The notes under the pieces are model-generated. The model did no database searches. It was not told the DNA's origin and saw only the letters and a program-made list of their open reading frames with translations. A DNA stretch of 64,000 nucleotides, from positions 1 through 64,000 of the IMG/VR virus record IMGVR_UViG_3300009537_002640; one strand, 5' to 3'. Shown piece after piece: positions 21,264 through 63,434 of the stretch. The DNA comes from a virus. Both the position numbers and the translations under genes were made by a program. Position 1 is the stretch's first letter; the number at the start of each line of letters is the position of its first letter.

Positions 21264-23681
21264 CTAACTGCACTTAGACCATCCACAGTCTTGACAAGTT
21301 ACGCAGCCTTCTTGATATATCATCGCCTCTGATTCACAAGAAGGGCATGTTTTATCGGATGTAACTCTTGTCCCATCCTCTATGTATTTCTTTAGAACTC
21401 GCGCCAATACTTTTGAGAAGCTGGTTAAATCACTATCAGGGTCTTTCTGCAGTTGCTCAACCAAGAATGATGGCTTTGCCCCATGTCTCAATGCAAGTGA
21501 TACCATCCTAGTATGTGTTTGGTATAGCACGTTGTCAAATACCTTTGTCACATTACGTATAGCTCCGTCTTCTCCAAAAGATAAATCGTATTTACTTTGT
21601 TTCTTAGTACTGGATGCTTTGGTAAGAACACCATCAGAAAACTTACGCGGTATCTCAACCATTTCAGATAGCCCGCCGAATACCTCATATGGTCTTCCGT
21701 TCATAAGTCCAACCAGAATAGTCCACTTCTCGCCCTTAACAGTTGCTTGGTGAATATGGCAAGGTAAGTCTTTGGGACGCTTTACTGCATCTCTGTAATC
21801 AAACTTATCTTTGCTACTCTCAGTAACCAGCACCCCACTACGAGAACCGTCTACGTAAACAGTAACGCCCTTCAGCCCCTCTTTCCAGCCTGCCATGTAA
21901 AGCTCACCAACAACTTCTGGCGGTGTACCACTGGGAAGATTAATGGTGCTTGAGATAGCGTGGTCTATGTGCCTTTGAATAGTGCCTTGAATCTGTACTC
22001 GACGCAACCAATCTATTTGGTCACTCTCCACAAAGAACTCAGGCAACTCAGCATCAGGCTTCAGCCCCTTAATATCAAGCCACTGTTTTACGTTATGATG
22101 GAAAACCTTAAACTCTTCCCACCTATCGCCCATATCATCCACAAAGTCATCAGGGGAGCCAGCATCGTTATGTGAACGCTTCTTGCGTCGAATATGCGCA
22201 TTCCTAAATACAGGCTCTAATCCAGAGCTAGTTTGAGATACTAGTGATACACTTCCTGTTGGGGCGTTGGTAAGATTAGCTATATTGCGCCTGCCGTTTT
22301 CTTTAACCAACTTAAGTACATCTACTGGTAAGTTCTTAATAAACTCATTATCCTTTTCTTTGTTCCAGTCCCATACAGGAAACGTGCCTCGTTCTCCTGC
22401 TAACCTGGCACTTTCAGAATATGATACCACCTTGAGAGTTTCGTAAATCCTATCTACTACCTCAAGAGCTGCATCCGAATCATACCTTAGTTGCAAACAT
22501 GCTAAAACATCAGCCAGACCATGAGTACCCAATCCGGTTCTACGGCCATCTTGTGCAGCCTTTAGAAGCTTAGTCCACATTGCTTTTTCATCAGGGGTGT
22601 CAGATATATTTAGGATATTCTCTAGCTTCTCAATCTCTAACTCAACCAGGTCATCTGATAATCTTTGTGCCATTGATACTGTATTCTCGAATTCTTCAAA
22701 ATCAAAGAACGCCTCATCTGTGAATTCGCCATGTACAAAGTTCTTTAGGTTGATAGAAATCAACCTACATGAGTCGTAAGCTGATAGAGGAATCTCAGAG
22801 CATGGGTTGGTAGAGATAGTCTTAAAGCCCACATCAGCATAAGCTTCGGCTGGCATATACTTCAAAATGTTATCCCACATTAACAAACCTGGCTCTGCAT
22901 AATTAGTTGCAGACTCCACTATTGTCTTCCAAAGTTCCTTGGCGTGAACCTTACGAGTTATCACTGGGTCATCGGAATCAATAGGGAAGCGCAGAGTGAA
23001 CATCTCGTCCTTTTCTACCGCTTCCATAAACTCATCCACCAGCCTGACTGAAACATTAGCTCCAGTGACTTTGGTAAGGTCGTTCTTCATTGTAACAAAT
23101 TTGAAAATATCGGGGTGCCGTACATCCATACTAATCATAAGAGCACCACGACGACCGTGTTGCCCAATCATACGACATGTATAGGAATACAAATCAGCAA
23201 AAGACCAAGCTCCAGTTGTGGTGCCAGCAGAATTATTCACTAGCGAGCCTTCGGGACGCAAAGTGGATATATCTAACCCGACACCACAACGGCGCTTGAA
23301 TAGATTAGCCAGCTCTTTACTGGCATCAACAATAGAAGATATTGTATCTTTTGGAGATTCCACTACGACACAATTTGACAAGGATACATTGACATAGTTG
23401 TTGCCAATACCCATCATAGGAGAGCCCTGAGGAACAATGTGTTTAAAATGTGCAAGCTGTGCGTAAATCTGTTCTTCAGACAACGCACGGTTTCCCCCAA
23501 ATTTCTTCTCCATCCTGGCAAACTCTTTAGCTAAACGCCGATGCATATCATCTGGCGTCTTCTCCATAAGATTGCCCTCTTTATCTTTAAGAGCATACTT
23601 GCTCATCCAAACATTAGCGGCTAATTGGTCGCCGCCGAAATATTCAAGTGTACTTTCTAATACCTCATTCTTGTCGTGCAT
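21264..23681 (-). CDS. nrdJ: Class II (adenosylcobalamin-dependent) ribonucleoside-diphosphate reductase
   Basis: It converts ribonucleotides to deoxyribonucleotides with a cobalamin-generated thiyl radical. At 805 residues the length suits monomeric NrdJ. Visible motifs are the substrate-side VSLSNCVVV, the active-site finger NPCSEIPLSAYDSC at about residue 294 (Cys, Glu) and the loop APTGSVSLV at about 473. The C-terminal zinc/thiol module has CPSCESEA and CVTCQDCGWSKCS, the type that recycles the active-site disulfide. AGGAG and AAGGA lie before the ATG. The gene ends in TAG. As no NrdB partner is expected for class II, one gene suffices, provided the host supplies B12. Confidence 0.95.
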   Translation of the reverse strand: MHDKNEVLESTLEYFGGDQLAANVWMSKYALKDKEGNLMEKTPDDMHRRLAKEFARMEKKFGGNRALSEEQIYAQLAHFKHIVPQGSPMMGIGNNYVNVSLSNCVVVESPKDTISSIVDASKELANLFKRRCGVGLDISTLRPEGSLVNNSAGTTTGAWSFADLYSYTCRMIGQHGRRGALMISMDVRHPDIFKFVTMKNDLTKVTGANVSVRLVDEFMEAVEKDEMFTLRFPIDSDDPVITRKVHAKELWKTIVESATNYAEPGLLMWDNILKYMPAEAYADVGFKTISTNPCSEIPLSAYDSCRLISINLKNFVHGEFTDEAFFDFEEFENTVSMAQRLSDDLVELEIEKLENILNISDTPDEKAMWTKLLKAAQDGRRTGLGTHGLADVLACLQLRYDSDAALEVVDRIYETLKVVSYSESARLAGERGTFPVWDWNKEKDNEFIKNLPVDVLKLVKENGRRNIANLTNAPTGSVSLVSQTSSGLEPVFRNAHIRRKKRSHNDAGSPDDFVDDMGDRWEEFKVFHHNVKQWLDIKGLKPDAELPEFFVESDQIDWLRRVQIQGTIQRHIDHAISSTINLPSGTPPEVVGELYMAGWKEGLKGVTVYVDGSRSGVLVTESSKDKFDYRDAVKRPKDLPCHIHQATVKGEKWTILVGLMNGRPYEVFGGLSEMVEIPRKFSDGVLTKASSTKKQSKYDLSFGEDGAIRNVTKVFDNVLYQTHTRMVSLALRHGAKPSFLVEQLQKDPDSDLTSFSKVLARVLKKYIEDGTRVTSDKTCPSCESEAMIYQEGCVTCQDCGWSKCS

Positions 23682-23765: not shown

Positions 23766-24416
23766 TTATCCGCTAAGTTCGCCAAGTAGTTGACTCTTGC
23801 GCAACTTAGAGATTGCCTTATTCTTGATTTGTCGGATACGCTCGTGGGTAAGATTGAACATAGGCCCTATCTCACGCAAAGTTTGTGGCTGACGGCCATC
23901 CAAACCGAAGATAAGCCTTACAATCTCACGGTCACGTTCTGGAAGCTCGCCAAGCACTTCTGCTATACGCTCATCACGTTCCTTGACAAAGAATTGCTCT
24001 TCGGGAGTTTCCTCCACCTGCTCTTCTTCCTTGCCAATTTCAGAAGGCTCTGCGTACACAACGCGAGTCTTGTCGGGATTGTACACGACATCGAAACGAC
24101 TTGCTGCACGCTTTACACTATGGCGAATCCATTGCTCCGAAAAGACGAAGAAGTTTGGGAAACGGTTATGGTCAAAGCGACGTACTGCCTTCACAAGACC
24201 AATAAACCCTTCCTGGACCAAATCTTCATAATTAGGGAAACTTCTATATGGTTTAGTTACACTATATACCAAAAAAGAAAGTTCGGTAACTATTCTGTTC
24301 TGGACCTTTTCTACCTGCTTCTCCAATTGATCACTTGACAGAGTGCCATCGGCCTTCAAATCATCAATACTACGAAACAGGTTCATTGCCTCTTCGTTGC
24401 TCATGTAACGACTCAT
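23766..24416 (-). CDS. Sigma-70 family RNA polymerase sigma factor
   Basis: The 216-residue protein has region 2 at about residues 59-102 (YEDLVQEGFIGLVKAVRRFD, then FSEQWIRHSVKRA) and region 4 at about 157-209 (LPERDREIVRLIFGLDG, LREIGPMFNLTHERIRQIK). Region 1.1 is absent and the linker between regions 2 and 4 is acidic. It would redirect host RNA polymerase to phage promoters. GGAG lies upstream of the ATG, inside the end of the diadenylate-cyclase gene three bases away. Region 2.3/2.4 reads FFVFSEQWIRH instead of the usual TYAxWWIRQ, so its promoter preference may differ from host sigma. Confidence 0.93.
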   Translation of the reverse strand: MSRYMSNEEAMNLFRSIDDLKADGTLSSDQLEKQVEKVQNRIVTELSFLVYSVTKPYRSFPNYEDLVQEGFIGLVKAVRRFDHNRFPNFFVFSEQWIRHSVKRAASRFDVVYNPDKTRVVYAEPSEIGKEEEQVEETPEEQFFVKERDERIAEVLGELPERDREIVRLIFGLDGRQPQTLREIGPMFNLTHERIRQIKNKAISKLRKSQLLGELSG

Positions 24417-24419
24417 AAC

Positions 24420-24977
24420 TTACTCCTCTTCGCTTACATCTTCAACTCTAAATACTTCTTTTAATTTTCCATCTTTCCAAACACGCACTGTGTTGGTCTC
24501 CTCACTAAGAGTTAATACACCAATTACATCGTCGCGTAAAGAAAAACTTGCTGCGGCTTTATGACGTGTGCCACAATCTTCAGGTGTATCTAACATTGGG
24601 TTTGCAACAACTAGATACACCCCCGCCCCTACAATCTGCCCAGACCTATCGACAACAACAGCGCCGTCATGGGGTGGGCGTGAGTACTCTATGACACACT
24701 GCTTTCCTGCCTCTGTGTCTATCATTCTAAGAGCCTCAATCGGATTCTGCTTAGGCTTCATTTGAACCATGCCATCTACTCTAGGTTCTTTTTCAAAATC
24801 TCCTAAGACAACAAGAGCACCCAGCGGATCTTCTATACCAGATGCAACAGCTTTGGCTAAGTCTTTCAGAATTTCAAAGATAGTTCGTTCAAACTTCTCA
24901 TTATTCTTGGCAAAGCTAAATTGCATACTAAAGTCCACATAAGGTGCCTCACTTTGCTTACTCTTTTCTTCTGTCAT
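24420..24977 (-). CDS. DisA_N-type diadenylate cyclase (c-di-AMP synthase) domain protein
   Basis: This family joins two ATP into cyclic di-AMP. In 185 residues it shows the DAC fold landmarks: GALVVLGDF near 55, the catalytic DGA motif as PPHDGAVVVDRSG near 100, a hydrophobic GAGVYLVV strand, then CGTRHKAAASFS near 138 (RHK in place of the usual RHR) and LTLSEETNTVRVW. Spacing between DGA and RHx matches the family. There is no membrane segment or DisA-type HhH domain, so it is a soluble stand-alone cyclase, preceded by a short helical N-terminus as in CdaS. It sits one base after the SLOG-like gene and three before the sigma factor. The Arg-to-Lys change could reduce or alter activity. Confidence 0.85.
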   Translation of the reverse strand: MTEEKSKQSEAPYVDFSMQFSFAKNNEKFERTIFEILKDLAKAVASGIEDPLGALVVLGDFEKEPRVDGMVQMKPKQNPIEALRMIDTEAGKQCVIEYSRPPHDGAVVVDRSGQIVGAGVYLVVANPMLDTPEDCGTRHKAAASFSLRDDVIGVLTLSEETNTVRVWKDGKLKEVFRVEDVSEEE

Positions 24978-24978
24978 T

Positions 24979-25482
24979 TCATTTTCTTTCTGTATCCTCT
25001 TTGGTAACTATTTTCATAGTAAAACCATCTATTACCATACGGTTGTTATCAAAGGAATACTCAATCGTGTCGTATGTGTGTCCTTGTTTTCTTCCATCCC
25101 AAAATACCATGGTGAAATTAGAGTTTTCAACAATGTGCTCATTTACGGTATTATCAAAGAATCCTCTTCCGTCGTCTGTTGTGGGCTTAATAATGCTTAG
25201 TGCATCAGCATATTGGTAAACCCTATTTAAGTCCTCTTTCTGTTCTTCGTACCAGTGCTGTCCCAAAACCTCTGGCAGATAGGGGAGAAATAAATGATAT
25301 TGTTTCTTGGTCTTCAGGCAATGCTTAGCCGCCCAGAGACCGACCCCGATGTTCACAGATATGTTATACACCAACTCATCGCCATATTGAAAGCTCAAAG
25401 TGTCAAGAGTTTCCTGGACACGCTTATCCTCCGCCTGACTAAATACATCAGGCGTATGTCCAACTACACCAACCTTGTACAT
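24979..25482 (-). CDS. SLOG/DUF1273 (YpsA-like) Rossmann-fold protein, putative nucleotide sensor
   Basis: The 167-residue protein matches the YpsA/DUF1273 branch of the SLOG superfamily. It has a VGVVGHTPDVF opening strand, ISVNIGVGLWAAKHC near 46 (the phosphate-binding Gly loop), LFLPYLP, QYADALSIIKP, then VENSNFTMVFWDGRKQG near 126. SLOG proteins bind nucleotides or nucleotide-derived ligands. It lies directly upstream of the diadenylate cyclase gene, separated by one base, so sensing or processing a nucleotide signal made by its neighbour is an attractive inference. YpsA-like proteins also affect cell division in some bacteria. GAGGG precedes the ATG. Confidence 0.75.
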   Translation of the reverse strand: MYKVGVVGHTPDVFSQAEDKRVQETLDTLSFQYGDELVYNISVNIGVGLWAAKHCLKTKKQYHLFLPYLPEVLGQHWYEEQKEDLNRVYQYADALSIIKPTTDDGRGFFDNTVNEHIVENSNFTMVFWDGRKQGHTYDTIEYSFDNNRMVIDGFTMKIVTKEDTERK

Positions 25483-25491
25483 ATATACCCT

Positions 25492-25668
25492 CTACTTGTT
25501 ATTTTCTTCTAGTTCTTCGAGCATCGATTGTAACGCCAGCTGTATAATCTCCACATTCTGCGTACTCATTATAGATTGTAATCGCAGTTGGAGTGTCTTG
25601 GCGTCTATTTCGACTCTCTGTTTACCATTAGAGGTTTTGGTCGTTTTCCAAAGACCCATCCTATTCAT
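25492..25668 (-). CDS. Hypothetical small helical protein
   Basis: The frame can start at GTG 25680, but ATG 25668 (MNRMGLWKTTK) is well spaced from GAGG and is preferred, giving 58 residues. The second half is a Gln/Leu-rich helix (LQLRLQSIMSTQNVEII, ALQSMLEELEENNK) with coiled-coil character. It lies between SpoVR and the SLOG protein. No family recognised. Confidence 0.7.
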   Translation of the reverse strand: MNRMGLWKTTKTSNGKQRVEIDAKTLQLRLQSIMSTQNVEIIQLALQSMLEELEENNK

Positions 25669-25680
25669 TGTTATCCTCAC

Positions 25681-27099
25681 CTATAAGATGTCAAATCCCG
25701 CTTCATCAAATACAAATGCTACCGGGTCTGCATCATCACCATAAGTTTTAAGTTCGACTGGTCCTCCCCATAGTTCATATATATATCCCATGGTTTTCTC
25801 AGTATACTTCTCATCTAAAGGGCCAAAGTCGTCTGAATGTTGGAGCATTAATATATCTCCATCTACCTGATTTACTGTCACAAGAGGTGCTCCATAATTA
25901 ATGGTGGGGCGAATTATATTTTCGATAATCTTATCTAACTCTCTATCTTTCAATTCAATAATACCGTACTCTTCGGGCAAATCATCTTCGTCCATACCTG
26001 GTTCTCGTTCATGTCTATATCCATAGTTGAACAAGCCCAGACTTGTAGCTAACTCAGGTGTTAGATAGTTACGTAAGAACGATGCGTCATCTTCTTCAGC
26101 CGCGACCTCTATTACCTTTTGTATGCCAGTGATATCTGATTCACCATCTTTGTACTTCTTATCCCACCTCTCTCGAATATCAGTAAACACTTTGAACCCT
26201 AAATAGTAAGGATTGATTCGGAAAGGGTGTCCTGGACTTACCACTGAAGCGTGGCACTTACAAAACTCTAAATGTTCCTCCTCACTTGTTTCATGATACT
26301 TAAACATTAGCTCCGCATGCCAAAAGGAAGCAAAGCCTTCATTCATAATCTTGGTCATAACAATGGGATAGAAGTAGTACGACTCTTCTCGTATAATACC
26401 AAGTATATCCTTCTCCCATTCTTCTAACGGAGCATAATTAGTAAGAAACCAAAGCAGGTCTCGCTCAGGATGCGGAGGTAGCTTTTCACCTTCCACCCGA
26501 TATCTTATGCTTCTCTTATTATTGTTGATATTTAGTAGATCGTCGAACTCATCCCTATGTACTTTTTCTTCTATTATGTGCTTATCAGGATAGCGTTTTC
26601 TATATACGCCTTTATGCCAATCTATGTGATTATCTAAAGCAAAACCTATATCCATTAGGTGTTCTACTTTCTCTAACCCATATTGCTCTACATAATCATC
26701 AACTCTAGCTGCTCTTTCTGCAGCTCTATAAATCATATTTCGGTCTGAACCCTTAAACATATGATTGTGCTTAAAAAAATGCACATGCCCAAAGACATGT
26801 GCTGCGACCATGATGTTAATTACATCCAAATTTGTATTCAAAAGGAAAGCATAAGATGGGTCATTATTGAATACAATCTCATACACTTTTGATAGCCCCA
26901 TCTCACCATATATCTTTTGGTGGTCATAGGAGCGACCGTATGACCAGTGGCGCGCTCTAACTGGTAAGCCATATGAACAAGCCTCCAGCATGATGTCTCT
27001 ATTAACATATTCAAAGATAGTAGGGAAGAAATCTAATCCCTCTTTACGGGCTAGCTCTTCCATGTCTTTGATTGCTTTAAATACGTATTCTTGGCCCAT
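25681..27099 (-). CDS. spoVR: SpoVR-family protein
   Basis: SpoVR/YcgB proteins are soluble. In bacteria their genes often lie with prkA and yeaH and are linked to starvation, stress and spore-cortex phenotypes; their biochemistry is unresolved. The 472-residue protein shows SpoVR landmarks: HWSYGRSYDHQK, SYAFLLNTN, VAAHVFGHVHFFKHN, HIDWHKGVYRKRYP, NEGFASFWHAELM and SPGHPFRINPYYLGF. The frame opens at 27150, but ATG 27099 has AAGGA upstream and avoids overlap with the previous gene. The many His and acidic residues suggest a metal site. It is the third member of the PrkA-YeaH-SpoVR set here. Confidence 0.92.
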   Translation of the reverse strand: MGQEYVFKAIKDMEELARKEGLDFFPTIFEYVNRDIMLEACSYGLPVRARHWSYGRSYDHQKIYGEMGLSKVYEIVFNNDPSYAFLLNTNLDVINIMVAAHVFGHVHFFKHNHMFKGSDRNMIYRAAERAARVDDYVEQYGLEKVEHLMDIGFALDNHIDWHKGVYRKRYPDKHIIEEKVHRDEFDDLLNINNNKRSIRYRVEGEKLPPHPERDLLWFLTNYAPLEEWEKDILGIIREESYYFYPIVMTKIMNEGFASFWHAELMFKYHETSEEEHLEFCKCHASVVSPGHPFRINPYYLGFKVFTDIRERWDKKYKDGESDITGIQKVIEVAAEEDDASFLRNYLTPELATSLGLFNYGYRHEREPGMDEDDLPEEYGIIELKDRELDKIIENIIRPTINYGAPLVTVNQVDGDILMLQHSDDFGPLDEKYTEKTMGYIYELWGGPVELKTYGDDADPVAFVFDEAGFDIL

Positions 27100-27110
27100 A
27101 ATAAATATCC

Positions 27111-27545
27111 TTACACAAGCATTGTGCCTGCCATAGTTACTGTTTTCCAATCGTGATTTAACAACTCTCGTATAGCTGGTTTATCCACTCTCTGATACTC
27201 ATCAATTAGCAGGTGTATATCTCTTGTTCTAATCCCATCAAAGCATCTATCATACATAGAGGTTGCTGCTGTCACACGCATTCTATCCACCCCTGTTCTA
27301 TTAACAAAAGCTTTGACATATTTTTGGGTGGGAACTACCACCATAAAATACTCATTGCGTGAATCAAATATATAAGCAAGTTTGCCCAGCATATTAGTTT
27401 TGCCTGACTGCCGAGGTACAGTACTAACAAAAGCACCATATTCTTGCCACCAAATATCTATCGCGGATGTATACTTTTTGATAGAGGGTAGATAAATATC
27501 ATGATGATATTTCCATCTATACAGCTCTAAATCCATATAGTTCAT
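27111..27545 (-). CDS. Small P-loop ATPase, terminase-ATPase-like
   Basis: The 144-residue protein has Walker A within STVPRQSGKTNML near residue 45, a VVVPTQKYVKAF strand and Walker B HLLIDEYQRV near 113, followed by VTMAGTML. This order (PRQSGKT, strand, LLIDE) resembles the N-terminal ATPase half of large terminase subunits, but no nuclease domain follows. It begins with an ATGA-type overlap with the yeaH stop and lies between yeaH and spoVR, where bacterial operons have nothing. It could be a truncated terminase-like gene or a dedicated small ATPase. Function unknown. Confidence 0.7.
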   Translation of the reverse strand: MNYMDLELYRWKYHHDIYLPSIKKYTSAIDIWWQEYGAFVSTVPRQSGKTNMLGKLAYIFDSRNEYFMVVVPTQKYVKAFVNRTGVDRMRVTAATSMYDRCFDGIRTRDIHLLIDEYQRVDKPAIRELLNHDWKTVTMAGTMLV

Positions 27546-28717
27546 TCTTCCTTACCCTCGATTCCTAAGAACTGTTTCAAACAAGTATAAATGTCTTCTT
27601 TCTGCTCAATAGCTGCTGTAAGAAAACGCGGATGGTCTATACTCTTCTCAAACTCTTGATGAAGGGTAGACCATCTAAACCCACTGCCCCCATAGTTGTA
27701 AAAGCTATCAGTATTAATTTCTCCGTACCCCACCGCACTGCACAGTTCTAGCAACTCTTTTACCAGCTCAACGCACTTCTCATTATCAGATGGCCAGTTG
27801 TCCCCATCACTAAAAGAGAATACGTAATTGTTCCATTGAGCAGGGGGATGATTAGCCTCTATATGCTCTAAGGCCAGCTTGAATGCTGAGCTACACATCG
27901 TTCCACCAGAGTTAGATATCTTGAAGAAGTTCTCTTCAGGAACCACAGCAGCTCTGGTATCGTGAGCAATAAAGATTAACTCTACGAAGTTATACTTGGT
28001 CTTACAAAAGTGCGCCAACCAAAAGAAGAATGATTTAGCTATGTACTTCTTATCGTCATCCATACTGCCTGAGCGGTCCATTAGGAAATACACAGCGGCA
28101 TTGGAGTGATATTCTTTCTCTAAGTCCCATATCTTGTAACGTAAATCTTCTGGGCGGATGTTCTTAATTTCCGCCTTGCCCTTTTTAGCATTACGCTTCA
28201 TGTTCTCGAAGATGGTGCGCTTCTTGTCTACGTTAGACAATGGGCCAACTTCTGCCAAGTCAGTGAACTTAATGTTCTCTGTCTCAATCTCTACTGCACT
28301 ATCCTTAGCCTCAAGCCAGGGCAAGTCAAGGTCTTCTAGCATCATCTGTATGATTTCAGCTAGCTCTACTTCTTCCTCGTAGATTTCATCACCAGCCTGA
28401 TCATCTGCCTGATTGCCAGTGCCTTTACCCTTACGCCCTGTGCCATCATGAGCAATCATATCTCCGGGCTTAGCATCGCCTTCGCCTTGGCCTACACCCT
28501 CTTTATTCTTATCATCAGCGTGCTTAAACCTATACGTATCTAGAAACTTGATAGGAATCTTAACCTTCCTCTTTCCATCAGAGGAGATAATGCTGGCATC
28601 ACTAACCAAATCCTTCAGATTCTCTCGTATGGCCTTTTTAACACGCTGGGAGTGTCGTGCAGAGTCACGCTTGCCGCGTTTACGCATTCCCCAGATATCT
28701 AGTAAGCTATCGCTCAT
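27542..28717 (-). CDS. yeaH: YeaH/UPF0229 (DUF444) von Willebrand A-domain protein
   Basis: The 391-residue product has a charged N-terminus (about 1-130), including a Gly/Asp-rich low-complexity stretch typical of the family (GKGTGNQADDQAGDE). A VWA-like domain follows with the MIDAS motif DRSGSMDDDKK near 214, a conserved Thr in SGGTMCSSAFK and the Asp in FSFSDGDNW. In enterobacteria YeaH is the partner of the kinase YeaG/PrkA. Here it follows prkA by seven bases, supporting the same partnership. Confidence 0.92.
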   Translation of the reverse strand: MSDSLLDIWGMRKRGKRDSARHSQRVKKAIRENLKDLVSDASIISSDGKRKVKIPIKFLDTYRFKHADDKNKEGVGQGEGDAKPGDMIAHDGTGRKGKGTGNQADDQAGDEIYEEEVELAEIIQMMLEDLDLPWLEAKDSAVEIETENIKFTDLAEVGPLSNVDKKRTIFENMKRNAKKGKAEIKNIRPEDLRYKIWDLEKEYHSNAAVYFLMDRSGSMDDDKKYIAKSFFFWLAHFCKTKYNFVELIFIAHDTRAAVVPEENFFKISNSGGTMCSSAFKLALEHIEANHPPAQWNNYVFSFSDGDNWPSDNEKCVELVKELLELCSAVGYGEINTDSFYNYGGSGFRWSTLHQEFEKSIDHPRFLTAAIEQKEDIYTCLKQFLGIEGKEE

Positions 28718-28724
28718 TTTAACC

Positions 28725-30719
28725 TCATGTGGTTTTAGACATTAGTGAGTTCACATATCGTAGCAATTGATTTGCTGAATCGACATTATACCCATACTTA
28801 TCAACCAACGTCTCGATAACCTGATTGATTTTCTTCAACGCCTCAGGGTCAGGATTACGTGAGCTAACGGTCAGACGAATGATATCTGCACGCTCGTCGA
28901 ACAGCTGCTTCTCAAGAGCCTCTTTCAATTTAGCATGACTCTGATAGTCAAACTCAACACCATCGCTTCTACGCTGAAGTACCTTACGAAGTGCTTCCTG
29001 CCTAAAACTATCCTTAGTAGCATCACTGATTCCTACCTTCTCTTCGATACTTCTCATTAGCCCATGGTCTGGTTCGTGGTGCTCACCAAACTCATCAACC
29101 AAATCTGTATCATCTAGATAGGCAGCTACGTTATCTACGTAGTTGTTCAACAGGTTGTTGATTTCCTTATCGAAGTTGACAAAGAATGCCTTCTGAACTT
29201 CGGTCTTAGCCATCTTGGTATATTCCTCAATGACAGTCATGATAATCTCATCAAAGCGTTCGAGGTCTTCCTTACCAAACTTGGCACTGCTCTCAAAGTT
29301 TTCCTTAATAGACCTCAGTACATCAATAGGAGTTATGCAACGCAAGTTGTGCTTACTGAAGCAATCTGCAATACAGTTAAAGATGTAACGTGGACTCACT
29401 CCATCCATACCCTCTCTATCTGCCTCTTCCTTAATGTCCTTCAAGTCTTCCTTAGTGAAGCCATCGACATCGCTACTGTTATATAGATGTAGTTTCTTTA
29501 GTAGAGTAAGATTCTGGTCCTTACCTGGCTCTAGACGACTCATAACTGCAAACATAGATGCTACCTTAAGAGTAAGTGGAGCAACATGTACATCACCGAA
29601 ATCGGCTTCAGCAACCAGCTTCTTGTAAATCTTCTCTTCTTCATCTAAGATTAAGTTATACGGAGCCTTCACAACAATGATACGGTCATGCAACGCTTCC
29701 ATCTTAGTGTCCGCCAAGAAACGAGTATATTCGGTTTCATTGGTGTGCGCAAGAATAAACTCATCAGCGTAAATAAGTGGGAAACGCTCAGTTTTAATGG
29801 TCTTTTCTTGTGCTAAGGTTAGTAGTACATGAAGAAACTTAGGGTCAACCTTTAGCATTTCTATCATTTCCATAATGCCACGGTTTGCTACGTTTAATTC
29901 GCCATCAAACTTGTAAGCACGGGGGTCTGATTCAACACCAAACTCGCCTAACTTACTAAAGTCTACAGAGCCTACAAGCTCGGTAATAGATTGGTTCTTA
30001 GTATCGCCTGGTAAGAATGTACCTATGCCGATACGATTGGTTTCTGAAATGAACAGGCGTTTCACTGGCAACTTTAGCCATTCGCCATTATATTTATGGT
30101 CTAGTAGGTGTTGCACTGGCGGGGATAGTCTTGCTAACGGGTCAATCTTAATGCCGTACTTTTCTCGAAACATTGGTCGTAGGTCGACCGGAACAGCATT
30201 AAGTGGATTCTCGTGCATTGGAGAATCTGTAAGGGCATAAATCGCACCTTCTTTAGTGCGAGACCACGCTTCAAGCCCGTGCTTTAGAAGTGTAGCCATT
30301 TGACTCTTACCAGAGCTTGTTGGCCCGTACAGTAGCAAAATACGACGGCCAACTTGAGAGCCACTGGCTGCAGCCTTTAGGTACTTCACTACCTTATGAA
30401 TCATGTTATCAACGCCAAACAACTCCTGGTTAAAAAACTTGTACCTGGGAATCGTTTGTGTTTTGTCTTCCTCATCGTAGTCCACACCTGCACTGAGTAT
30501 CATATCTAATACTCGGGAATGGGCTAACTGAGCAAGTTTAGGGTTTTCTTGAACCAAAGGAATGAATTCTTCCAGGGTACCTTCCCACTCATGAGTATCC
30601 TGTTTCCTGCTAAACTCGGCGATATCTTTAAAGATATCTTGTTTAGTTCCTTGTCCCTCTAATGTCTTTTCATCGGACATAGTATTACCTCCACTGTTAA
30701 GAACCTTGCTTCTTGACAT
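28725..30719 (-). CDS. prkA: PrkA-family serine protein kinase / AAA+ protein (YeaG-like)
   Basis: PrkA proteins combine an AAA+ ATPase core with a C-terminal kinase-like domain. In bacteria they act in sporulation and nutrient stress. The 664-residue protein has an N-terminal EWEGTLEEFIPLV, Walker A YGPTSSGKSQM near 133 and the PrkA landmarks SPMHENPLNAVP, NRGIMEMIEMLK and DEFILAHTNETEY. Two starts are credible, each with its own Shine-Dalgarno: ATG 30719 with GGAGGATCAAT, and ATG 30680 with GGAGGTAATACT giving a protein 13 residues shorter. A sigma70-like promoter lies immediately upstream. It is the first gene of the unit that continues through yeaH, spoVR, the SLOG protein and the c-di-AMP synthase. 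Confidence 0.93.
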   Translation of the reverse strand: MSRSKVLNSGGNTMSDEKTLEGQGTKQDIFKDIAEFSRKQDTHEWEGTLEEFIPLVQENPKLAQLAHSRVLDMILSAGVDYDEEDKTQTIPRYKFFNQELFGVDNMIHKVVKYLKAAASGSQVGRRILLLYGPTSSGKSQMATLLKHGLEAWSRTKEGAIYALTDSPMHENPLNAVPVDLRPMFREKYGIKIDPLARLSPPVQHLLDHKYNGEWLKLPVKRLFISETNRIGIGTFLPGDTKNQSITELVGSVDFSKLGEFGVESDPRAYKFDGELNVANRGIMEMIEMLKVDPKFLHVLLTLAQEKTIKTERFPLIYADEFILAHTNETEYTRFLADTKMEALHDRIIVVKAPYNLILDEEEKIYKKLVAEADFGDVHVAPLTLKVASMFAVMSRLEPGKDQNLTLLKKLHLYNSSDVDGFTKEDLKDIKEEADREGMDGVSPRYIFNCIADCFSKHNLRCITPIDVLRSIKENFESSAKFGKEDLERFDEIIMTVIEEYTKMAKTEVQKAFFVNFDKEINNLLNNYVDNVAAYLDDTDLVDEFGEHHEPDHGLMRSIEEKVGISDATKDSFRQEALRKVLQRRSDGVEFDYQSHAKLKEALEKQLFDERADIIRLTVSSRNPDPEALKKINQVIETLVDKYGYNVDSANQLLRYVNSLMSKTT

Positions 30720-30751: not shown

Positions 30752-30780
30752 ATTATACACCAACTTTTTGGCACTCTTAA
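30752..30780 (-). promoter_or_regulatory. Sigma70-like promoter, copy 2, upstream of prkA
   Basis: On the minus strand TTAAGA (30780-30775), a 17-base spacer and TATAAT (30757-30752). The string GTGTATAATATACATAT (30760-30744) is identical to that at 20329-20313. The transcript would start about 25 bases before the first prkA ATG and would include its GGAGG. Confidence 0.72.
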
Positions 30781-31041
30781 CTATTTTTCGCCATATAAAT
30801 CTAAGAAATGCTTATCTTTTCCCTGGCCCATTTCTTTCCTAATGCGGTCAGCATCAGGTGCTATTTTCTGATTGTACAAATCTTTAGCACTTAGCCATGT
30901 TCTATTATTCCACGCAGATAAAAGCTTTTTAAACTCTGTGCATTCGCATTCTGGACATGTAATTTCCGGAGGATCCTTACCACGCTGGAACTTCTCTAAC
31001 ACGAGTTCACATTTTTGACACTGGAAATTAAATAACGGCAT
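30781..31041 (-). CDS. FmdB-type zinc-ribbon protein
   Basis: The 86-residue protein starts MPLFNFQCQKCELVLEKF and continues to ITCPECECTEFKKLL, the CxxC...CxxC pattern of the FmdB/CxxC_CxxC_SSSS regulatory ribbon family. The C-terminus is a charged helix. A strong GGAG precedes the ATG, two bases after the HAD phosphatase gene. Its TAG stop abuts the prkA promoter. It may bind nucleic acid or RNA polymerase, but that is inference. Confidence 0.8.
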   Translation of the reverse strand: MPLFNFQCQKCELVLEKFQRGKDPPEITCPECECTEFKKLLSAWNNRTWLSAKDLYNQKIAPDADRIRKEMGQGKDKHFLDLYGEK

Positions 31042-32084: not shown

Positions 32085-32286
32085 CTTTATTACTCTTGGA
32101 TGCTACTACCATCACATCTCTACCACTAATCGATATAATATCCTGAAAGCTCCTAGATGATAAGACATGGCGCTTAAACTTAGGGTCAGTAATCTCCATC
32201 ACCAAGCGTACCACACCAGTTTCTTCATCTTGCTCTACTCGGATTACTTTTCCGACCGGCTTAGATTCCAAGGTCATCGTCATCAT
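32077..32286 (-). CDS. Hypothetical small beta-rich protein
   Basis: The 69-residue protein is predicted beta-rich (VGKVIRVEQDEETGVVRLVME), ending in a lysine-rich tail. ATG 32286 lies inside the end of the DnaB-like helicase gene. Several in-frame ATG codons follow, so the exact start is uncertain. No family recognised. Confidence 0.7.
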   Translation of the reverse strand: MMTMTLESKPVGKVIRVEQDEETGVVRLVMEITDPKFKRHVLSSRSFQDIISISGRDVMVVASKSNKDE

Positions 32287-33655
32287 CCCCTGCGAATGTC
32301 TCGTCTACCATATCAATAAGCTTCATTCGCGGGAAGTCCTTACTCAATACAAATGAACCCTTTTCGCCATCTCGCATCTTAATAATGTAGATGGGCATGT
32401 CGGCTCTTGCGTACTCATCATCACGACAGCCTATTTGAATAATGATATTTGCATTGTTGGTAACCATGTCCGAACGTGCAAGGCGGTCAGTAGAGTAGTG
32501 TTGTTTATTCGGGTCTTTTGGTCTGTTAACCTGAGAGCCTGTGATTACTGGTATGTTGTATACACGAGCAAACTCGTGCAAGTCTGCGGCAATCTTACCG
32601 AGTGCCAACCAGTCTGAATCCCCTGGCTCGTTAGGTGCCATAATACCAATGTAGTCTATGATAACCAAGTCTGGTTTAAACTTGGTCTCGCACAGTTCAA
32701 CAAACTTAAGCTCAATCTCTCTGGTAGTTGCGCCCTTTGGCATATCTACAATGTGAAAATTGTAAGGATATTCCATCTGGAACTTTAGTACTTCAAAATA
32801 CTTATCCTTCTCTTCCTCGGACAACTTACCATCCCTTATATAGTTGTAGATAAGACCACCCATACAGGAGTCAATACGTCGCTCCATAGAAGACTTAGGC
32901 ATCTCTAGAGAGAAGTACAGAACATTGTGTCCTTTGTTTAAAGCTGCCGCTACACCTTGGAATGGGTCATTTCTATTGAGATATGCATTGACACCTATGT
33001 TGTGCATAACAACAGATTTACCTGTTCCTGTCGCGCCTGCTACAATCATAAGCTCACCAGGATGGAGCCCGTTTGTAATCCTATCAAACTCAGTGAACCC
33101 TGTTAAGATGCCTCTGGCCATATCGGGGTTAGCTTCTAGTTCTCGATAGTAATCCTCTCTTGTCTGGGCACTTTCGCTGAGTGAACCCTCTTCATAAGTT
33201 TCTCTCTTATAAATAGAGTCTATGTCTACTACAGCTTCTCGCACAAGGCGATTCACCTTATCCAATGCATCCTCTTGTCCGCTCTTGATTATGTCCCTGG
33301 AATCTTTGATGAGCGACTTGTGCAGAATCTTGTTATATCTGACACGAAACTTGTCCAAAATCCAAGTGAACTCCCGGTTATCTATCTCCGTCGCTGCTAT
33401 CTGATCGTACAAACCCACCACATCATCGTCCAAGTCAGTATCTAGTTTAGATGCGTACTCAGCTATGATGTCTCGTGTTGGAATGGATTTGTACTTGGGA
33501 TTCTCAAAATGCTCCATAATGGTTTTATAGAGCCATCGGTACTGAGGCGCGAAATACTCTTCGGTAATGGAACTTGTGCTCAACTCCATTGCGATTGTTT
33601 TGTCTTTTAAAGCATAAGCAATGATTTTTTGATCAAGCGTTATTTCCTGAGTCAT
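32261..33655 (-). CDS. dnaB: DnaB-like replicative helicase
   Basis: The hexameric 5'-3' helicase unwinds DNA at the fork. The 464-residue protein has a DnaB N-terminal helical domain (DQKIIAYALKDKTIAM, YFAPQYRWLYKTIM), a linker, then a RecA-like core. Walker A is GATGTGKS near 208, followed by VLYFSLEMPKSSMERRID, Walker B LVIIDYIGIMAP near 331, and VITGSQVNRP (sensor, Gln) and IIIQIGCR. The C-terminus is very acidic (DETFAGDDDDDLGI). It overlaps the loader gene by 23 bases, a coupling seen in phage helicase/loader pairs. Confidence 0.95.
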   Translation of the reverse strand: MTQEITLDQKIIAYALKDKTIAMELSTSSITEEYFAPQYRWLYKTIMEHFENPKYKSIPTRDIIAEYASKLDTDLDDDVVGLYDQIAATEIDNREFTWILDKFRVRYNKILHKSLIKDSRDIIKSGQEDALDKVNRLVREAVVDIDSIYKRETYEEGSLSESAQTREDYYRELEANPDMARGILTGFTEFDRITNGLHPGELMIVAGATGTGKSVVMHNIGVNAYLNRNDPFQGVAAALNKGHNVLYFSLEMPKSSMERRIDSCMGGLIYNYIRDGKLSEEEKDKYFEVLKFQMEYPYNFHIVDMPKGATTREIELKFVELCETKFKPDLVIIDYIGIMAPNEPGDSDWLALGKIAADLHEFARVYNIPVITGSQVNRPKDPNKQHYSTDRLARSDMVTNNANIIIQIGCRDDEYARADMPIYIIKMRDGEKGSFVLSKDFPRMKLIDMVDETFAGDDDDDLGI

Positions 33656-37294: not shown

Positions 37295-38728
37295 TTAGCG
37301 TCTACGCCTATCTACCACCCTCTTAGAGTTCTTTGTTAGCTTGCCCATCGCAGAGTTCTTTGCGGTAATCTTCTTGTGCAATGCATCTGCTGCGCTAACA
37401 GTCTGAGTCTTTCCAAGGTCGATGTTCATAGTCTCCGCACGAGTACTTTCTTTACCCTCTAGTGCCTTCATATGACGCTCAGCCTCAGCCTTAAGTTCTT
37501 TCACTCGTTCCTCTGGTAGTCCCAATCCACTGAAGAAAGTATAAATCTTCAAACTGTCTTCGTGGCCCGGAACTTCATAAACACCACGGAACACACGAGT
37601 TCCCTCGTTGCATATCTTGCTTACCATAGCAAATCCGTATTCTAGGTTTGCTGCTGGAACTTCCTCAAGCGCCTTCTTGCTACCAGTAACAATAACACCA
37701 GCCGAACGAGTTTGACCTAGATTGAAGTCAGCAGACAACAGCCCGCTTTCTAAACTGGTTAGCATAGCCTCAGCTACTGCCTCGTCCTCTAGGTAATCTT
37801 CAACTTCAATCATACCGTATAGAGCACAGTCACCAGTTCCCACAAAGACTCTCGAAAAGTCCATTGGGTCTAGAGAAGTGTGTTCGGATGGATTAGCTGA
37901 AAGCTTGTTGAACAAGTGAATAGGCTCAACAATAGCAGTGTTTGCTGTCTTCCAGAATTGTGCCATGGACATACCAGGATACATAAGCTCAATCTTAGCA
38001 TTATCCACAACGAACAGTGAGTTGATTACATCACTGCTTGCCATCTTAGCCAACTTAGCTAAAGTTTGAATGGAGTTGTGCTTAGATAAGCTATCCTCAC
38101 TGGACATGGGTAGCACATATAGCACAGACAATGGCTTGCCTAATTGTGACATAAGGCTCACCATAGTTTCGGCAGAACCTGAACCAGTACCACCACCACC
38201 AGAGACGCATAACAAGAGAATCTCAGTATCCTCTAGATGCTCCTCTAGGTGTTTTAGAATTTCATCAGAATATGTCTCTGCTGCAGCTTTACCAGTATCT
38301 AGGTCCTTACCTGCACCGCCGAGAGCATAGTCCAAAAATAACTTTTGAGCCTCTGGAATATGAACATGCTTCAAATCCTGAGTAGCTGTGTTGATAGCAA
38401 CAGTGCTGTAGCCTCGACCATAAAACTCCTCGGCCAACTTAGACCCACACTGTCCAACACCAACAACTCCAAGATTAACGCTCCTATCCTGTTGCTCTAC
38501 TAACATAACGGTCATATCCTCTTCCTCCGTTGGTTGCTCTTGCTCTTTACGCATCTCTTGTTTTTCTTTTAGAACGTCATCAAGCGAAGCCATATTTGGC
38601 CTTCTAGCCTTTAGCTCTGCTTCAAGACGAGCATTTTCTTCTACAATCTCGCCATCTGTTTTGATTCTTTTTGGCTGCCCATCCGAATCAACTACGACAA
38701 CTCGATTTCCTTTTTCCTCTTCCGACAT
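37295..38728 (-). CDS. Tubulin/FtsZ-superfamily GTPase
   Basis: The 477-residue protein has a charged N-terminal extension (1-80). The GTPase fold follows: the first nucleotide-binding loop GVVGVGQCGSKLAEEF near 88, VAINTATQDL and the tubulin signature SGGGGTGSGSAE near 177, then PMSSEDSLSKHNS and LFNKLSANPS. The C-terminus ends VVDRRRR. Phage tubulins (PhuZ) centre the phage nucleus and carry capsids, and TubZ segregates plasmid-like genomes; this sequence is not obviously either. The conserved TGSG and the Asn/Asp positions suggest active GTP binding. AGGAG precedes the ATG. It starts a replication block and follows rmlD by one base. Confidence 0.88.
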   Translation of the reverse strand: MSEEEKGNRVVVVDSDGQPKRIKTDGEIVEENARLEAELKARRPNMASLDDVLKEKQEMRKEQEQPTEEEDMTVMLVEQQDRSVNLGVVGVGQCGSKLAEEFYGRGYSTVAINTATQDLKHVHIPEAQKLFLDYALGGAGKDLDTGKAAAETYSDEILKHLEEHLEDTEILLLCVSGGGGTGSGSAETMVSLMSQLGKPLSVLYVLPMSSEDSLSKHNSIQTLAKLAKMASSDVINSLFVVDNAKIELMYPGMSMAQFWKTANTAIVEPIHLFNKLSANPSEHTSLDPMDFSRVFVGTGDCALYGMIEVEDYLEDEAVAEAMLTSLESGLLSADFNLGQTRSAGVIVTGSKKALEEVPAANLEYGFAMVSKICNEGTRVFRGVYEVPGHEDSLKIYTFFSGLGLPEERVKELKAEAERHMKALEGKESTRAETMNIDLGKTQTVSAADALHKKITAKNSAMGKLTKNSKRVVDRRRR

Positions 38729-38729
38729 T

Positions 38730-39473
38730 TTAATCTCCTGTCACTAAGTCATAGAACTTATCATACTTAGTTGTGTCTAATGATACATCGTTTGGTAAGT
38801 CTACGTCCTTAATATCTGCTCTTGACATAGGCTTAACGTTAACGTTTCGTCTTCTTGCTAGTTCATAAATCGATTTTCTATCTGTACCCACATTGATAAT
38901 ACCAGTTAGCTCTGTGTCTGGAAAACAATGCAGCAAAAAGCTTATCTTGTCAGCTATAACATCAACATAGTCTGCTGAAGAGTACAAATCATCAAATGCC
39001 TTTGGGTATGGCCATGGTGTATTTGGCTTAAAGCTGGTTCTTATTATCAAGTCGTTAGCATCATACCATGCTTCTCCCATAAGCTTTGTGCAGGCATAGT
39101 AGTTTATGGGCCGCGTTCTATCTGTCTCTTTATATATTCCCTTGTCTCCAGGATAAACATAATCAGTGGAGATATATATCACAGGAAGCCCATATGTTCT
39201 GGCCCAACGCTTTACATTCATAGCGCCCTCTACATTTATCCTTACCGCCTGGAGCCTTCCCTCTTCAGTTTCTGCCCCAGGTACATTTGTATAGGCGGCA
39301 CAATGCACTATACCCCTGATTCGATGATAATTGCTTACCAAACTCTCAGGCGCATGTCTCAATAATACATCAGCATCATCGCTGCTGGGAGCTAAATAAC
39401 TGATGCCGTGTTCTGGAGCAATCTTTTGTAATTCGGTTCCTAGCACTCCGGAACCACCAGTCATAAAGTACAT
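38730..39473 (-). CDS. rmlD: RmlD-like dTDP-4-dehydrorhamnose reductase (extended SDR)
   Basis: The 247-residue NAD(P)-dependent reductase has a TGGSGVLGTEL nucleotide motif, HCAAYTNVPGAE (the RmlD pattern around the second strand), ISTDYVYPG and the catalytic YYACTKLMGE. It is somewhat shorter than typical RmlD (about 290). With rmlA- and rmlB-like genes just upstream it would complete a dTDP-deoxysugar route except for a clear rmlC epimerase; a cupin in the cluster is a poor RmlC match. Its start overlaps a small gene. Confidence 0.88.
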   Translation of the reverse strand: MYFMTGGSGVLGTELQKIAPEHGISYLAPSSDDADVLLRHAPESLVSNYHRIRGIVHCAAYTNVPGAETEEGRLQAVRINVEGAMNVKRWARTYGLPVIYISTDYVYPGDKGIYKETDRTRPINYYACTKLMGEAWYDANDLIIRTSFKPNTPWPYPKAFDDLYSSADYVDVIADKISFLLHCFPDTELTGIINVGTDRKSIYELARRRNVNVKPMSRADIKDVDLPNDVSLDTTKYDKFYDLVTGD

Positions 39474-59856: not shown

Positions 59857-60564
59857 TCATACCACCTTCTGCATCAGCCTGGAATACTTAACCAAATCTG
59901 CTAGTTCATCTGGAGTTATACTACAGATGTGGTCAAAGCCAGGAGTTGCCTTAGAGAGAGTAAAATGTTTCTCTATAAGCTTTGCTCCTCTTGCTACAGC
60001 TACCAATGATGCCTCTATCCCAAGTGTATGGTCAGAGAACCCATAGTAAAAATCTCCAAATACTGGAGGAAAGTTTAGACTCTTATACTCGGTAGGATAT
60101 TCTGATACGCAATAGAGATACTTTACATTATCAGGAGACTTATCTAATGCCACTGAATTAAATCCCAGAGACATATAGCATTCTTTTCCGGTTGCTACCA
60201 TCTTCTCAGCTAATGGCCTATTAAGCTTAGACACACGACTTGCTATTTTGTGTCGCTTAACACCCAAGTCTTCCATCCATTGTAGCCGCTCTTCATCAAA
60301 AACGCTACACATGAACTCGATGCCTTCTTCATCGCACCAGTCTTTAAGCTGTGCGAATTGCTCTTTGTTAAATTCTAGAGGTTTTACACCAGCATGAATT
60401 TCTGGGTTTGGGTCTTCTCCGTCAGGCCCAAAGAGAGCATCCACCGAATAAGCCTGAAACTTAGCAGCATCAGCTCCAGCAATTGCAGCCTGACGGATTA
60501 ATTCATGCGCCAGGTGTATATTGCCATTATGGTTAATTCCAATCTCAGCAATTATAAACACCAT
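59857..60564 (-). CDS. NeuB-like N-acetylneuraminate (nonulosonate) synthase, short form
   Basis: The 235-residue (beta/alpha)8-barrel protein begins MVFIIAEIGINHNGNIHLA, with DAAKFQAYSVDALF, HKIASRVSKLNRPLA, LGFNSVALD, LYCVSEYPTEYKSLN, YGFSDHTLGIEASL and LIEKHFTLSKATPGFDH. It condenses a hexose-derived sugar with phosphoenolpyruvate to a nine-carbon acid. The usual SAF domain at the C-terminus is missing (typical length about 340). It is a paralogue of the 62604 gene, with slightly different substrate-loop sequence, so different specificity is likely. Confidence 0.88.
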   Translation of the reverse strand: MVFIIAEIGINHNGNIHLAHELIRQAAIAGADAAKFQAYSVDALFGPDGEDPNPEIHAGVKPLEFNKEQFAQLKDWCDEEGIEFMCSVFDEERLQWMEDLGVKRHKIASRVSKLNRPLAEKMVATGKECYMSLGFNSVALDKSPDNVKYLYCVSEYPTEYKSLNFPPVFGDFYYGFSDHTLGIEASLVAVARGAKLIEKHFTLSKATPGFDHICSITPDELADLVKYSRLMQKVV

Positions 60565-62603: not shown

Positions 62604-63434
62604 TTAATATTTTCTTAGCTTCTCTATGATGGGCTGTTCACTTACATACACAGTCTTAATCCCATCACCCAATATAGTCTCAACCTCACGAGCATCACGG
62701 CACAACTTACGTAAACCGGTTGGCTCCAATGATGCTGCCTGGTCACTACCATACATTGTACGGTCTAAAGTAATGTGTCGTTCAACTACGGCTGCACCTA
62801 GAGATACAGCGAGCAAAGTTGGTAATAGTCCCTTTTCATGCCCGCTGAAGCCGACGCCCTTTGAATCTGGGTATCTTTCGGTGAGAGTCTTAACAACACG
62901 AATATTAGACTCCCTGATGTCGGTTGGGTATGTAGAAGTGCAATGCATAACTGTAAAAGGACACTTGTGCTTCCTAAATATTTCTACTGCATGGTCAACC
63001 TGTTCTAGGGTACTCATACCCGTAGATATATAGGTGTGCTTTCCTTCTTGAGCTACAGTCTCTAATAGCTCATCGTATGTCAAGAGCGCTGAAGCAATCT
63101 TATTAAACTCTAGGTCATACTGCTGTAAGAACTTCTGGCTTTCTAAATCCCAGGCGGATGCGCTCCATGCTATACCTTTCTCTTTACAGTATCTATCTAT
63201 CTCGTCGTATTCTTCTTTGCCAAACTCTAAGCCTTCTTTCTGCTGCCTGTTGATTGTTCCCCAAGGCGATTCGCGAGACTTATCTAGCTCTTCCTTTGTA
63301 TACACTAAATCAATAGTGCGCTTTTGAAACTTAACAGCATCACATCCTGCATCTACTGCCAGGTCGATTAGCTTCTTGGCAATTCCCAAGTCACCATTGT
63401 GATTAATGCCTATCTCGGCTATAATATAAACCAT
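62604..63434 (-). CDS. neuB: NeuB-like N-acetylneuraminate (nonulosonate) synthase
   Basis: The 276-residue protein begins MVYIIAEIGINHNGDLGIA, with CDAVKFQKRTIDLVY, NKIASALLTYDELL, ISTGMSTLEQVDHAVE, VMHCTSTYPTDIRESN, VGFSGHEKGLLPTLL and VVERHITLDRTMYGSD, all hallmark NeuB motifs. The C-terminal SAF domain is absent. It is the first gene of the glycan block in this window. A clean GGGG lies before the ATG. Confidence 0.94.
   Translation of the reverse strand: MVYIIAEIGINHNGDLGIAKKLIDLAVDAGCDAVKFQKRTIDLVYTKEELDKSRESPWGTINRQQKEGLEFGKEEYDEIDRYCKEKGIAWSASAWDLESQKFLQQYDLEFNKIASALLTYDELLETVAQEGKHTYISTGMSTLEQVDHAVEIFRKHKCPFTVMHCTSTYPTDIRESNIRVVKTLTERYPDSKGVGFSGHEKGLLPTLLAVSLGAAVVERHITLDRTMYGSDQAASLEPTGLRKLCRDAREVETILGDGIKTVYVSEQPIIEKLRKY

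Follow-up and report, generated by a model that had tools for sequence, protein, structure and literature searches.

A putative diadenylate cyclase gene conserved beside the PrkA-YeaH-SpoVR module in a lineage of uncultivated giant phages

Introduction

The genes prkA, yhbH/yeaH and spoVR form a conserved set in bacteria, including Bacillota, Chloroflexota and Acidobacteriota, and the same trio is already known from phages, with examples in Thermus phages, huge phages and hundreds of IMG/VR contigs. Here we describe a trio locus in which a putative diadenylate cyclase (DAC), predicted to produce cyclic di-AMP (c-di-AMP), lies directly after SpoVR. The locus was found in the window, a 64,000-base stretch comprising bases 1–64000 of the 206,495-bp IMG/VR virus record IMGVR_UViG_3300009537_002640. 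The novelty lies in the DAC as a fourth gene beside PrkA-YeaH-SpoVR, and the conserved phage DAC is the real discovery.

The role of the trio in stress, sporulation and starvation is known from cellular homologues only (PMC13001217). Deletion of prkA in Bacillus anthracis results in sensitivity to NaCl, and prkA is induced ~13-fold by 1 M NaCl (PMC13001217). The same study finds negligible kinase and protease activity (PMC13001217), and PrkA is accordingly better regarded as an AAA+ machine. As the module is widespread but poorly understood, a conserved link to a DAC offers a handle on it, and predicts that the module is connected to c-di-AMP or to another nucleotide signal.

The PrkA-YeaH-SpoVR module in bacteria and phages

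By tblastn, 16 phage records encode PrkA, most of them from Thermus phages and huge phages. Annotated neighbourhoods and BLAST place YeaH and SpoVR beside PrkA in most of these, while SpoVR lies far from PrkA in LR756502. The Thermus phages (phiYS40, TMA, Lalka, phiLo, MN1), the huge phages and many viral contigs resemble the window in carrying the three families together. They differ in gene order, as the Thermus phages and most members of a viral group at 35% identity have YeaH-SpoVR-PrkA. Their PrkA is only ~29–37% identical to that of the window, and no DAC was found in the nine trio-type phage records tested. The Ralstonia jumbo phage RsoM2USA carries SpoVR and PrkA, with its SpoVR reportedly 56% identical to a Vibrio protein, and no DAC was found for this phage in the available part of its description (PMC8504454). 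Enterobacter phage LAU1 has a YeaG-YeaH pair at the end of its record and no SpoVR, and this pair may be host DNA.

The bacterial sets are the closest cellular relatives, with 45–55% identity in PrkA and mostly the order prkA-yeaH-spoVR seen in the window. No DAC, SLOG or sigma factor of the kind present in the window was found at these bacterial loci.

A DAC follows SpoVR throughout one phage lineage

The original prediction described a run of eight minus-strand genes separated by a few bases, and open reading frame (ORF) calls and profile searches confirm all eight. The trio families adjoin in this single run. PrkA (28725–30719, 664 aa) consists of an AAA+ domain (PF08298, 7.8e-112) and a C-terminal PrkA domain (PF06798, 7.2e-69). 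YeaH/YhbH (27542–28717, 391 aa) is a VWA-type DUF444 protein (PF04285, 9e-97) which matches the YhbH model TIGR02877 at 7.9e-132, scoring 439.9 bits against a cut-off of 468. SpoVR (PF04293, 7.7e-106) spans 25681–27150 and 489 aa if read from a TTG codon at 27150, but the true start is probably an in-frame ATG near 27099. With the ATG start, the intergenic gaps of the run are −4 to 11 nt. The DAC (24420–24977, 185 aa) is soluble and is followed after 3 nt by a sigma-70 family factor (23766–24416, 216 aa), which has both region 4 (PF04545, 4.4e-15) and region 2 (PF04542, 2.7e-9). A YpsA-type SLOG protein (24979–25482) precedes the DAC.

Single-protein scans of IMG/VR with the DAC or PrkA returned nothing and alignments were needed. 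A profile-guided scan with PrkA identified 571 viral PrkA-encoding loci, of which 80 were kept. The PrkA of the window is 53–60% identical to that of a group of related viral contigs, and this group carries a DAC after SpoVR (L033–L038, L040–L042, L044, L045, L049–L051, L054). A scan starting from the DAC identified 18 contigs of up to 395 kb, none outside this lineage. Once near-identical contigs were removed, 13 distinct phage DACs remained besides that of the window.

Homologues of the module are not scattered among these viruses. The DAC lies directly after SpoVR in 17/17 other viral contigs where this could be read, the remaining contig (L134) being cut by its end. A sigma factor follows the DAC in 7/14 distinct DAC phages (L038, L041, L042, L049, L051, L118 and the window), and follows SLOG in all three phages that have SLOG in place of a DAC. 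The arrangement belongs to a larger syntenic block of helicase, DnaC-like protein, DnaB, PrkA, YeaH, SpoVR, DAC, sigma factor (where present), ribonucleotide reductase (RNR) and PhoH. Genes resembling homing endonucleases, as well as inteins, vary around the DAC while it stays next to SpoVR. The composition of the locus is not a chance neighbourhood.

The phage DAC protein

The DAC of the window scores 65.9 bits against PF02457, well above the curated cut-off of 27 (3.2e-18), and its sequence matches CdaA chains. Its AlphaFold model has a mean predicted local distance difference test score (pLDDT) of 79 and a predicted TM-score (pTM) of 0.76. The top Foldseek matches of this model in the PDB are CdaA/DacA structures from several species, with TM-scores (TMt) up to 0.69 and E-values down to 1.9e-8. 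The window protein retains the DGA, GTRH and SEE motifs, and all 14 phage DACs retain DGA or DGS, GTRH, and SEE or SEQ. This retention accompanies substantial divergence, as the 14 proteins are only 35–81% identical to one another. Comparison of DAC pairs gave nonsynonymous divergence (dN) of 0.12–0.34; synonymous sites were saturated in 6/7 pairs, and omega (dN/dS) was 0.12 in the single measurable pair. These values indicate purifying selection on the phage DAC. The agreement in sequence and fold with CdaA-type cyclases, together with the retained motifs and purifying selection, makes it likely that the protein produces c-di-AMP from ATP.

The phage proteins share the fold and the DGA-GTRH-SEE motifs with CdaA, CdaS, DisA and DacZ, and the best NCBIfam model for the window protein is DacZ (1.8e-12), yet it falls below the cut-off of every subfamily. 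For CdaA its score is 41.9 bits against a cut-off of 188.8 (TIGR00159), and the YbbR and GlmM neighbours of the cdaA-ybbR-glmM operon are missing.

Diadenylate cyclases elsewhere in viruses and cells

No viral diadenylate cyclase seems to have been described so far. PHROGs contains no match to the DAC, the BFVD viral fold library has no DAC fold at E ≤ 0.001, and no phage DAC is reported in the literature searched, whose coverage excludes subscription papers. Scanning IMG/VR with the cellular-DAC pattern Kx[LM]GTRH[RH]A returned one stretch and no relative, a narrow pattern which leaves room for DisA-like viral DACs. Unannotated DAC matches were present in 15 phage records. Four of these were inspected as possible phage genes and, in translations, three (L029, L031, L032) precede YbbR-like and GlmM-like genes, which is the usual bacterial CdaA arrangement, so the matches were treated as contamination; the surroundings of the fourth (L030) are less clear. 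Since the virus databases searched yielded such an enzyme only in this lineage, its phages may have a second-messenger signal of their own in the host cell.

In cells, none of 80 sampled prkA loci has a DAC within ~6 kb on each side, using a phage-DAC profile that recognises 8/8 control DACs. A DAC is encoded elsewhere in 7/9 sampled cellular genomes. No cellular relatives of the phage subfamily were found by pattern in 84,980 species genomes.

SLOG in place of the DAC

Three related phages (L039, L046, L223; contigs of 134–318 kb) have the order PrkA-YeaH-SpoVR-SLOG-sigma-RNR and no DAC. Their SLOG proteins have intact TGHRP and GGAxGADxW motifs, and the ligand-site motifs are also intact in Streptomyces phage Sham. 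In the window, TGHRP is replaced by VGHTP and GGAxGADxW by VNIGVGLW, so the ligand site looks decayed; the second YpsA-type motif (GG/GM-x-x-G-x-D) reads SVNIGVG. The window protein had been proposed to be a SLOG sensor. Its membership of the YpsA-type SLOG family stands (PF06908, 1.2e-8), but a working sensor is not supported, given the loss of the motif here and the lack of SLOG in most DAC relatives. SLOG proteins of jumbo phages have been predicted to use NAD+ or make ADP-ribose signals (PMC7824862). The proteins described here share the family and the jumbo-phage setting with these, but they are encoded beside the trio, and the one in the window has a degenerate ligand motif.

A tree of PrkA and YeaH sets these phages apart from the cellular sequences sampled, with a support of 100, while L048, which is called viral, sits among the cellular sequences. 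The window branches together with the SLOG clade (82). L043, which carries the trio, groups with the DAC clade (100), where its exact place is not resolved. The simplest history, though not proven, would be an ancestral DAC, gain of SLOG in the branch leading to the window and the SLOG clade, and loss of the DAC in the SLOG clade. The occupation of the DAC position by SLOG in a sister group suggests that a nucleotide-signal component belongs to the module.

Proposed role of the cassette

The reading we favour, with a probability of about 0.4, is that of a cassette specific to this phage lineage, in which the DAC is a fourth partner of PrkA-YeaH-SpoVR and c-di-AMP works with the module on host stress. 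During infection the cassette would be co-expressed, presumably by co-transcription, with genes for replication and nucleotide metabolism, and the DAC would convert ATP to c-di-AMP. The raised c-di-AMP would then act on host receptors that govern cell-wall homeostasis and the uptake of K+ and osmolytes. In cells, c-di-AMP controls the transport and uptake of K+ and compatible solutes (PMC12542702). The phage machine of PrkA (AAA+), YeaH (VWA) and SpoVR may remodel host proteins in the same pathway of ionic-osmotic and envelope stress. The expected outcome would be that the infected cell stays intact, and perhaps does not grow, while a long infection runs its course. The common theme would be the homeostasis of ions and turgor together with the integrity of the envelope, and a large phage whose infection is long could need to control these. 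If the enzyme is active, this would be a phage that writes a second messenger of its host instead of erasing it. A related formulation, a virus-run c-di-AMP circuit in which the phages' own cyclase subfamily is coupled to a captured trio and the signal gene can be exchanged for SLOG in sister phages, has close to an even chance of being correct.

The sigma factor was initially proposed to be the output of c-di-AMP signalling. This is not supported, as no sigma factor is detected at that position in about half of the DAC phages. The linked factor would instead be a phage transcription factor in the same unit, not necessarily a signal output. Overall, the observation behind the original prediction is confirmed and its interpretation partly supported.

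Several points weigh against the favoured reading. The DAC phages all belong to one lineage, so the 17/17 linkage does not represent 17 independent events, and the whole block around the DAC is syntenic. Furthermore, L043 has the trio with neither DAC nor SLOG, indicating that the DAC is dispensable for maintenance of the trio. These features, along with the loss or lack of the DAC in the SLOG group, would also be expected if a host-derived stress set and a DAC were acquired once by an ancestor and have hitch-hiked since with no joint function. Such a history is very improbable given that the DAC motifs are retained despite the divergence of the proteins, and that the gene is always beside SpoVR while the mobile elements around it come and go.

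A further adverse point is found in the catalytic motifs. The third residue of the RHR motif, a difference from the known cyclases, is K in the window and I in relatives, and most of the relatives lack the His before DGA. On this basis the DAC might have lost catalysis and serve the trio as a nucleotide-binding or scaffold subunit. This is improbable, as the 14 divergent proteins otherwise show no variation in DGA/S, GTRH and SEE/SEQ, and an annotated DacZ departs at both places as well (LDGA; RHH, with H as the third RHR residue). DacZ is an established cyclase.

Searches for partners of a c-di-AMP signal in the genome of the window also gave nothing. No protein of the TrkA_C or CdAMP_rec receptor families was found there or in ten relatives searched, and no ydaO riboswitch or other Rfam RNA and no DHHA1 phosphodiesterase was found in the window's genome. 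The targets of the signal would therefore have to be host proteins or undescribed ones. The absence of a phage receptor of the tested families elsewhere in the genome would also fit a local ligand, in which c-di-AMP, or a SLOG ligand in relatives, directly regulates the trio as a self-contained unit of signal and effector with an exchangeable signal gene. This is the main rival, and the alternation of DAC and SLOG at one position after SpoVR favours it. The window, having both a DAC and a degenerate SLOG and branching with the SLOG clade, would represent an intermediate state. Conversely, cells and many phages carry the trio with no DAC next to it, and PrkA, YeaH and SpoVR have no known c-di-AMP-binding domain, leaving direct regulation a serious but unlikely alternative.

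It may instead be that phage c-di-AMP saturates or mis-sets host cyclic-nucleotide immunity, such as sensors of the CBASS or Panoptes type, with adjacency to the trio being incidental synteny. Cyclic-nucleotide defence and viral counter-measures are widespread (PMC11722364; PMC7824862). The DAC also lies among replication genes that are inherited together as one block, which is consistent with this. Against it, PADLOC gave no defence model match for the DAC or SLOG, and only partial matches of the sigma factor to MzaA and of PrkA to DolB, and 3′3′-c-di-AMP is a housekeeping signal in many bacterial hosts. Known viral counter-measures degrade or sponge signals and are not known to make them. 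An anti-defence role is consequently decidedly improbable, and the favoured reading remains that of c-di-AMP working with the trio on host stress.

A pairing of the DAC with an eraser was considered and not used. A DHH-DHHA1 protein is encoded by four relatives of 316–395 kb and not by the 301-kb SLOG relative, but it lies among purine genes (adenylosuccinate synthetase, IMP dehydrogenase) and is absent from the window's genome. The clustering of adenylosuccinate synthetase, IMP dehydrogenase/GMP reductase-like (IMPDH/GMPR-like) and DHH-DHHA1 genes in these relatives (L135–L138, from G010, G003, G007 and G004, respectively) is a possible purine or modified-base module, with no match in the window's genome.

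Promoter and operon limits

A sigma70-like promoter at 30752–30780 had been proposed to lie in front of the run. It is one of 37 promoter-like sites between 20000 and 35000, compared to 34.9 expected in shuffled sequences (standard deviation (sd) 5.3), and the 9 terminator-like sites of the same region compare to 9.8 (sd 3.1). As both counts are at chance level, the promoter does not provide evidence of an operon boundary. Almost all non-overlapping genes of the 64-kb window lie on the minus strand, and the zinc-ribbon gene upstream of prkA overlaps prkA in L033 and L044, hence the operon limits are not established.

Intein-like inserts in SpoVR

Six relatives carry inserts of 367–420 aa with intein-like ends inside SpoVR, at two distinct points. 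The first follows A274 in window numbering (L033:14606-17221, L034:14878-17487, L039:13131-15836, L041:18953-21607), and the second is at H122 (L044:13925-16498, L054:12225-14711). Both points are within motifs of the invariant residues H118, H122, E271 and A274, which indicates that they mark the probable active site. The SpoVR AlphaFold model (pLDDT 82.7) has no fold match in the PDB at E ≤ 0.001, so that SpoVR is a protein without a solved relative.

Other genes of the run and the surrounding genome

Two small genes complete the eight-gene run. A 144-aa ORF (27111–27545) encoding a small P-loop ATPase-like protein separates YeaH from SpoVR, with a weak match to AAA_30 (7e-4), no PDB match and no BLAST match in related phage loci or cassettes. 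It contains terminase-like PRQSGKT and LLIDEYQ motifs. The second is a 62-aa helical ORF (25492–25680) with a sub-threshold and not credible Pfam match.

The syntenic markers flanking the run are also on the minus strand. RNR (21264–23681) is 62% identical to that of L051, and the L118 gene at the equivalent position matches PF02867 (6.5e-91). Upstream, an FmdB-type zinc ribbon (30781–31041; PF09723, 1.4e-10) recurs in front of prkA, and a DnaB-type replicative helicase (32261–33655) has phage DnaB matches and 32–41% identity to the gene at that place in relatives.

Matches to baseplate wedge, head maturation protease and virion structural proteins identify the genome as that of a tailed phage. 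Comparing the proteins tried with 50,697 phage records revealed no close isolate, and neither a tRNA nor a Terminase_6N match was found in the genome. A tail-sheath candidate had no match in the phage records, PHROGs or Pfam, so this label is only a guess from its translation.

A minus-strand gene of the window (37295–38728) encodes a TubZ/FtsZ-like protein (PF00091, 4.7e-17; TubZ-like C-terminal region, 1.5e-4), a possible phage tubulin that has homologues in roughly half of the related contigs. Inspection of translations by eye found putative structural proteins rich in the DGY tripeptide in L006 and L007 (G000 bases 144001–184000). In the same manner, a long run of sugar-nucleotide, glycosyltransferase and methyltransferase-like genes was read at 38730–64000 of the window, including NeuB-like genes at 59857–60564 and 62604–63434.

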